Assembly (NCBI GenBank): GCA_945881865.1
Contig: CAMCVK010000006.1
Span: 62,001-126,000, forward strand
Direction: 5' to 3'
Length of the DNA stretch: 64,000 nucleotides
DNA from: Fimbriimonas ginsengisoli Gsoil 348
GTDB taxonomy: Bacteria > Armatimonadota > Fimbriimonadia > Fimbriimonadales > Fimbriimonadaceae
The notes under the pieces are model-generated. The model was not told the DNA's origin. It made no database searches and saw only the letters and a program-made list of their open reading frames with translations. The translations under genes were made by a program, and so were the position numbers. Each line of letters opens with the position of its first letter. The stretch's first letter is position 1. Shown one piece after another: positions 45,684-47,016 of this stretch.

Positions 45684-45709
45684 ACGGGTACCATTTAACG
45701 AAGCGTGTC

Positions 45710-45741
45710 CTTGCGTCTCAATTTCGTTGGGACGCCGCAAG
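45710..45741 (+). ncRNA. Probable S6:S18 ribosomal-protein-binding leader of rpsF
   Basis: In the rpsF 5' leader, cuug (45710-45713) pairs with caag (45738-45741). A bulge CCG (45735-45737) follows, then an eight-pair stem runs from cgucucaa (45714-45721) to uugggacg (45727-45734) with loop UUUCG. A stem-loop with an unpaired CCG ahead of rpsF is the known recognition element of the S6:S18 complex, which represses its own mRNA. The hairpin ends 13 bases before the ATG at 45755, well placed to block the ribosome. Seen here by eye; the match in form is strong, binding is not shown. Confidence 0.75.
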
Positions 45742-45754
45742 ACCGAAAGGCAAC

Positions 45755-46099
45755 ATGGCAATCCGAAAATACGAAGCGTTTTACATGGTCCGTCCGGACC
45801 TCTCCGATGGCGATATCACCAAGATCGTCGACCGATTCAAGGGAATCGTCGAGCAGAACAATGGCACGGTTGACACCGCCGCCAAGTGGGACAAGCGAAA
45901 GCTCGCCTACGAAGTCGCCGGCCTGAAAGAGGCAAATTACATTTTGATGACGTTCTCGGCCGAGGGTAAAGTACCGGCTGAGCTCGCACGTTTGATGCGC
46001 ATTAGCGACGACATCATCCGCCACATCATCGTGTCCGTGGACGATTCGGTCACGACCGAAGACGTCGCGGCCGCCGTCGCCGTTGCGCCACTCGCCTAA
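45755..46099 (+). CDS. rpsF: 30S ribosomal protein S6
   Basis: A 114-residue S6 protein (MAIRKYEAFYMVRPDLSDGD, then AYEVAGLKEANYILMTFSAEG), which binds S18 on the platform of the small subunit. The ATG at 45755 follows GAAAGG; longer open frame upstream has no S6 sequence. It precedes ssb by 28 bases in the classical order. The next genes should be rpsR and rplI, but they are not here. The leader carries the probable S6:S18 motif described separately. Confidence 0.95.
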   Translation: MAIRKYEAFYMVRPDLSDGDITKIVDRFKGIVEQNNGTVDTAAKWDKRKLAYEVAGLKEANYILMTFSAEGKVPAELARLMRISDDIIRHIIVSVDDSVTTEDVAAAVAVAPLA

Positions 46100-46127: not shown

Positions 46128-46559
46128 ATGGTCAATCGCATCGTTCTCATCGGTCGCCTAACCCGCGACCCGGAGCTTCGCACCACCACCACGGGAAAGA
46201 ACTTCGTGAACTTTTCCATTGCGGTTCAAAAGCGGATCAAGCCGCAGGATCCAAACGAGCGAGACGCCGATTTCTTTAACATTAAGGCCTGGGGCCAAAC
46301 CGCCGAGTACGTTTCGAACTACCTGGCGAAAGGCCGCTTGGTCGCCGTTGATGGCCGCCTGGAAACCCGAAAGTACACGGATAAGGAAGGCATCAACCGC
46401 GAAATCTTCGAGATCGTAGCGGACAACGTGAACGGCCTTGATCGTCCACGAGACGATGCCGGCAGCACCGCCGCTTCCGAGCGCAGCTCCGGCGGATCGT
46501 CCCGCTCGGCGGCTCCTGCCCCGGCGCCTGAAGAATACGACCCGTTCGCAGATGACTAG
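46128..46559 (+). CDS. ssb: Single-stranded DNA-binding protein
   Basis: A 143-residue SSB with the OB fold (MVNRIVLIGRLTRDPELRTT, FFNIKAWGQTAEYVSNYLAKG) and an acidic C-terminal tip EYDPFADD, a variant of the usual DDDIPF that recruits repair proteins. The linker is short and Ser/Ala-rich. It sits between rpsF and a nuclease gene whose start overlaps the ssb stop by eight bases. The AAGGAAAT ribosome site lies just before the ATG. Confidence 0.95.
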   Translation: MVNRIVLIGRLTRDPELRTTTTGKNFVNFSIAVQKRIKPQDPNERDADFFNIKAWGQTAEYVSNYLAKGRLVAVDGRLETRKYTDKEGINREIFEIVADNVNGLDRPRDDAGSTAASERSSGGSSRSAAPAPAPEEYDPFADD

Positions 46560-47016
46560 TCGCCCGTTGGCGACGGTTCTCGCTGGGCTCGCGCTCCTGG
46601 TAACGGGTTGCGCGGGCCCTTCTGTTTCTGCGCCATCCACCGCAGGCTATCCGGTCACGAAAATTGTGGACGGTGACACCGTTCACGTGCGTCGGAATGG
46701 GGAAGACGTCAAGGTGCGCTTGCTGCGAATCAACACAACCGAACGCGGCAAGTTCGGCTACTCGCAAGGTCAGCGGCAATTGGCGAAGCTGATCGGCAAC
46801 CGTCCGGTCACGTTGGAGTTCGAAGATGAGCGGCGCGACCGCTACGGCCGAGAGCTTGCGTATCTCATCGCCGACGGGAAGAACCTAAACATCGAGATGG
46901 TGCGCTCCGGCTGGACCAAGTTCTACGTCAAGTACGGCACCGGGAAGTATGCAAAGGCGTTTCGGCGCGCCGAAAACGAAGCAAAATCTGCGCGACGCGG
47001 CCTCTGGTCTCAATAA
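46552..47016 (+). CDS. Staphylococcal-nuclease-like lipoprotein
   Basis: A 154-residue SNase-fold nuclease that cuts DNA and RNA with calcium. The start at 46552 gives a lipoprotein signal (TVLAGLALLVTGC, lipobox VTGC), and the catalytic residues sit in VKIVDGDT-like KIVDGDTVHVRRN, LLRINTTERGKF and DRYGRELAYL. The position of the usual arginine in VRLLRI is kept. It overlaps the ssb stop by eight bases, replacing rpsR in the operon. It is probably exposed at the periplasmic or outer surface, perhaps to use extracellular DNA. Confidence 0.87.
   Translation: MTSRPLATVLAGLALLVTGCAGPSVSAPSTAGYPVTKIVDGDTVHVRRNGEDVKVRLLRINTTERGKFGYSQGQRQLAKLIGNRPVTLEFEDERRDRYGRELAYLIADGKNLNIEMVRSGWTKFYVKYGTGKYAKAFRRAENEAKSARRGLWSQ

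Follow-up and report, generated by a model that had tools for sequence, protein, structure and literature searches.

The window analyzed here is a 64,000-nucleotide stretch of a Fimbriimonas ginsengisoli Gsoil 348 contig. On its forward strand lie, in this order, rpsF encoding ribosomal protein S6 (45755..46099; PF01250, 98 bits), ssb (46128..46559; PF00436, 112 bits) and, in the place of rpsR, a gene for an SNase-domain protein with a lipobox (46552..47016; PF00565, 65 bits; signal LVTGC, read from the sequence). The start of the latter overlaps the end of ssb. The sole rpsR copy found in the genome lies on a separate contig (G000:C1:492028-492186), hence outside the operon, and there is no rpsF-rpsR operon under the leader. 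The domain matches and the lipobox bear out what a previous sequence-only reading had proposed for these genes, namely rpsF-ssb followed by a lipoprotein nuclease, and the rpsR copy found agrees with its proposal that S18 is encoded elsewhere.

The rpsF leader (45700-45757) reads GAAGCGTGTCCTTGCGTCTCAATTTCGTTGGGACGCCGCAAGACCGAAAGGCAACATG. Upstream of it, a putative -10 box, TACCAT (GGGTACCAT), occupies positions 45689..45694 on the forward strand, on which all following elements lie as well. A GGTATCAT/GGTATAAT-like box is similarly spaced in nearly all relatives. Deduced from the putative -10 box, the transcript probably starts near 45701. Two helices can be delineated downstream. The 5′ strand of H1, CCTT (45709..45712), pairs with AAGG (45747..45750), which is at the same time the Shine-Dalgarno core and ends 4 bases 5′ of the ATG at 45755; this assignment is based on the sequence, on covariation in relatives and on matches to two covariance models introduced below. 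Directly 3′ of the first H1 strand follows the hairpin H2 (45713..45735; GCGTCTCAA, loop TTTCG, TTGGGACGC), obtained by folding and with an equivalent hairpin in relatives. It has nine pairs, formed by the strands 45713-45721 and 45727-45735. The linker CGCAAGA (45736..45742), identical in the relative G027 and CGCAAGC in G016, leads to a CCG (45743..45745), whose cytosines presumably are those bound by S18, judging from two invariant C's in 40 aligned leaders and from the alignment with E. coli. H1 comprises only 4 pairs here, whereas most relatives have 6, and it encloses a short Shine-Dalgarno core. In the minimum-energy fold, H1 could be extended by CGTGT (45704..45708) pairing with ACATG (45753-45757), which contains the start codon, but conservation of this extension was not seen.

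The minimum-energy fold of 45699-45757 (-17.3 kcal/mol) contains H1 and H2, and the start codon is paired in it too (CGUGU/ACAUG). H2 alone yields -12.2 kcal/mol, and adding H1, formed with the Shine-Dalgarno strand, brings this to -12.7 kcal/mol. The sequence-only reading had drawn a different structure at 45710-45741, a 4-pair outer stem (CUUG/CAAG) plus an 8-pair hairpin with an unpaired CCG and a UUUCG loop, 13 bases before the ATG at 45755. This structure can indeed be drawn with standard pairs throughout. Its stability (-11.4 kcal/mol) is close to that of H2 alone, although both folds compared with it are more stable, and the pairing probability of the CUUG/CAAG stem (0.15-0.22) is below that of H1 (0.29-0.32). 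The CCG at 45735-45737, which it had taken as the protein site, consists of the final base of H2 and the start of the linker.

Could such a leader arise by chance? H1, H2, linker and CCR occurred jointly in 56 of 20,000 dinucleotide shuffles of the window leader, and in 2 of 20,000 when the observed length was required as well, by criteria that were chosen after the sequence had been seen. The folding energy of the complete leader, on the other hand, corresponds to a z-score of only -1.66, as might be expected if this were a chance hairpin in an ordinary leader. We regard that explanation as the least credible of those considered, given the 2 in 20,000 shuffles and, above all, an anatomy and position common to nearly all relatives and accompanied by covariation.

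For the comparison with relatives, rpsF and its upstream region were taken from 60 genomes of the order. Nearly all share one layout, consisting of a -10 box, a pyrimidine-rich hexamer complementary to the Shine-Dalgarno strand, a hairpin opening with an invariant G, a linker, two cytosines followed by two further bases, and the Shine-Dalgarno strand. Exceptional or unclear leaders are few (G020, G032 and G045; partial in G006 and G017). Hexamer and Shine-Dalgarno strand vary in concert, as in CUCUCU/AGGGAG, CCUUCU/AGGAGG, CUUUCU/AGGAAG, UUUUCU/AGGAAA, CUCUCU/AGAGAG, CUCGCU/AGUGAG and GUCCCU/AGGGAA. The window genome obeys the same covariation, with C-G and U-G of the relatives replaced by U-A and C-G (CCUU/AAGG). 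In an alignment of 40 leaders from which the window genome was held out (A1), H1 was paired in 98.8% of cells (98.8-99% with the larger alignment below included), each of its six pairs showed double changes, and the equivalents of C45743 and C45744 were invariant in 40/40 leaders. A larger alignment of 72 leaders (A3), which was fitted to the model and hence leans toward it, contained 140 double-change cells over the whole structure compared to 41 ± 7 in shuffles, none of 500 shuffles equaling it. The double-change support dropped sharply when the structure was slid along the alignment. A second MAFFT alignment (A2), in which H2 was misaligned, was left out.

These data also bear on the anatomy drawn previously, with a CUUG/CAAG stem and a protein site at 45735-45737 that are independent of the Shine-Dalgarno strand. 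Such a structure could serve as an alternative fold leaving the Shine-Dalgarno sequence open. The outer stem is, however, not conserved: the linker of G016 and G027 still reads CGCAAG but has no CUUG to pair with, and G013 and G014 likewise speak against it. The proposed CCG is lost in the nearest relatives G007, G013 and G014, a loss that the earlier reading had named as evidence against its proposal; this applies to the CCG it had chosen, whereas the CC pair at 45743-45744 passes the same test. With a weaker fold than H1 plus H2 in addition, it is very improbable that the outer stem and the CCG at 45735-45737 are the functional parts. In the window genome, this pairing of the linker with the 5′ strand did not exceed that of shuffled linkers (p = 0.23). 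As a conserved alternative fold, the outer stem was rejected; it reached a mean of 3.27 pairs versus 2.73 in shuffled linkers and stood out in some members of family f5 only. The earlier reading thus located the right place and misassigned two of three key parts; its assignment to the S6:S18 type is supported by the covariation and the covariance models, while a different CC pair and a different H1 partner are conserved.

Two variations were observed among the rpsF leaders. An extra small stem-loop, TGCCGNAAGGC, lies directly 5′ of the H1 strand in G004, G005, G012, G013, G014, G016 and G019 (e.g., L025, L011, L008). In the f5 leaders of G040, G042, G046 and G050, the linker contains CAGAG or CGGAG, which can pair with the 5′ partner strand of the Shine-Dalgarno sequence and would yield two mutually exclusive folds.

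Searches with Rfam models gave little. RF02893 (RpsF_leader; gathering threshold 37 bits), which gives the leader of E. coli a score of 110 bits, had no match in the window or the genome. Among 21 genomes from the order none passed the threshold, and among 14 control genomes only one did. No Rfam leader family matched in the window or in the rpsF leaders of 12 relatives, clear as these are. Because the model is narrow and misses the relatives too, the missing match, which the earlier reading would have counted against itself, says little about membership.

Two custom covariance models were used, R1 built from A1 and R2 from A3, with the window genome absent from both and the training leaders trimmed by our own curated anchors. 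Both placed their best match of the searched stretch at 45709-45750 on the forward strand, R1 with E = 0.0097 over 201 bases (10.4 bits) and R2 with E = 0.0091 over 1001 bases (12.8 bits), and both took CCUU/AAGG as H1, as predicted. This weak match disappears when the whole window or whole genome is scanned; with default filters, R1 yielded no match, or one unrelated match at E = 0.136, in the window, the genome and the rpsR loci. The low scores mark the element as a diverged member that would go unnoticed without its location being known. Among the 30 best matches of R1 over 201 genomes of the phylum, 29 lie just upstream of rpsF and the remaining one near a contig end. Nine of these 30 belong to f1, the family of the window genome, none with rpsR in reach, compared to 16 of the other 21 matches that have it. 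R2 assigns the rpsF leader of E. coli, which has been characterized experimentally, to the register found here (UUCCUU, CCGU, AAGGAG; 12.6 bits).

An S6:S18 operator (rpsF_leader) has reportedly been described for E. coli and B. subtilis (Matelska 2013, Fu 2014, Babina 2015), and RF02893 represents its E. coli-like forms. In E. coli, the Shine-Dalgarno sequence lies inside H1, the cytosines as well as both S6 and S18 are needed, and the cytosine pair is contacted by S18 through residues K60 and R63 (PMC4647458). The window leader resembles this operator and the widespread rpsF_leader in its position directly before rpsF, in H1 including the Shine-Dalgarno strand, in H2 on top, in a linker of 7-8 bases and in the cytosine pair on the 3′ side, with CCG one base 5′ of AAGG (E. 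coli UUCCUU...CCGU AAGGAG; window CCUU...CCGA AAGG). It differs in being shorter, in its 4-pair H1, in lacking an RF02893 match and in that rpsR lies outside the operon, which leaves the S18 half of the effector to another transcript. The positions of K60 and R63 presumably correspond to R and R in the S18 of the window genome, as read by eye. The Chlorobi S6:S18 r-leader likewise precedes rpsF, in rpsF-ssb-rpsR operons, and is reportedly unlike the rRNA site (PMC7247131); it was set beside the window leader by description only.

On the sequence and anatomy of the leader, its covariation in relatives and the gene positions, the rpsF leader (about 45701-45754) is probably a diverged S6:S18-type translational operator, in which binding of the heterodimer would promote H1 and lower rpsF translation. 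By analogy with E. coli, H2 and CC(G) would imitate the 16S rRNA site of S6:S18, so that the free heterodimer could bind the leader and stabilize H1, whose 5′ strand would mask the Shine-Dalgarno AAGG and perhaps, in this genome, also the start codon. Such an operator would limit S6 when the complex exceeds the rRNA, but could not alone limit S18; ssb and the nuclease gene would also be held back if co-transcribed and coupled. Since rpsR is elsewhere, the mRNA carrying the switch would encode just the S6 half of the complex that it senses. How much control is needed may be different now that S18 is no longer part of the operon.

The low R1 and R2 scores, the shortened H1 and the weak Shine-Dalgarno sequence would also fit a decaying relic, an inherited element that has drifted too far for S6:S18 still to control rpsF, leaving the hairpin as a mere 5′ leader; losing the co-transcribed rpsR would take away part of the benefit. 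We consider this unlikely, as the four inner positions of H1 changed by compensating pairs and not by mismatches, H2 is nine pairs long, the linker and CCGA are identical to those of G027, and most other genomes with unlinked rpsR retain strong elements.

The linkage of rpsF and rpsR, read from gene coordinates, follows family lines. The two genes adjoin in every sampled f2 genome and in f3, whereas rpsR is far off or on another contig in all f1 and f5 genomes that yielded the two genes. Since f1 and f5 group together in a tree of S6, SSB and S18, a single unlinking event suffices. The rpsF leader was retained on both sides of this split. A functional operator here would extend the S6:S18 type to Armatimonadota, whose leaders Rfam does not recognize, and would provide a natural experiment with one regulator and two sister families in which the second protein partner was relocated. 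It would become testable whether a heterodimer-sensing operator works, and how stoichiometry holds, after the subunit genes uncouple.

The earlier reading had also raised the possibility that rpsR carries its own copy of the element; none was detected upstream of rpsR in the window genome. In eight congeners (G001, G002, G003, G006, G009, G010, G015 and G018), the 40 bases before the start of the unlinked rpsR are conserved and can form GCUC-hairpin-linker-CCAM-GAGC-AUG, with GCUU/AAGC in G003 (L065, L069, L074, L079, L099, L100, L101 and L103). R2 matched two rpsR leaders, L069 and L066, in place at 7.0 and 7.7 bits, with E-values above 4, which is chance level. The hairpin reached shuffle p-values of 0.01-0.08 per genome in genomes that are related to one another. 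We take an S6:S18-like element before rpsR of these congeners as a lead. Tentatively, and with more doubt than confidence, one may picture a split autogenous regulon, in which the common ancestor of the two sister families lost rpsR from the operon, the rpsF leader was kept, and rpsR of the eight-congener clade gained its own S6:S18-type element, the heterodimer controlling both transcripts. In the window genome, the rpsF half is the only one detectable.

The S18 proteins themselves differ between the families. They contain three or four zinc-type cysteines in the linked families and none or one in f1 and f5, where they have long charged N- and C-terminal tails (e.g., L001:1378-1791). In one genome, the normal rpsR is accompanied by another S18-like reading, which is split into two pieces that overlap (G059:C42:75007-75158).
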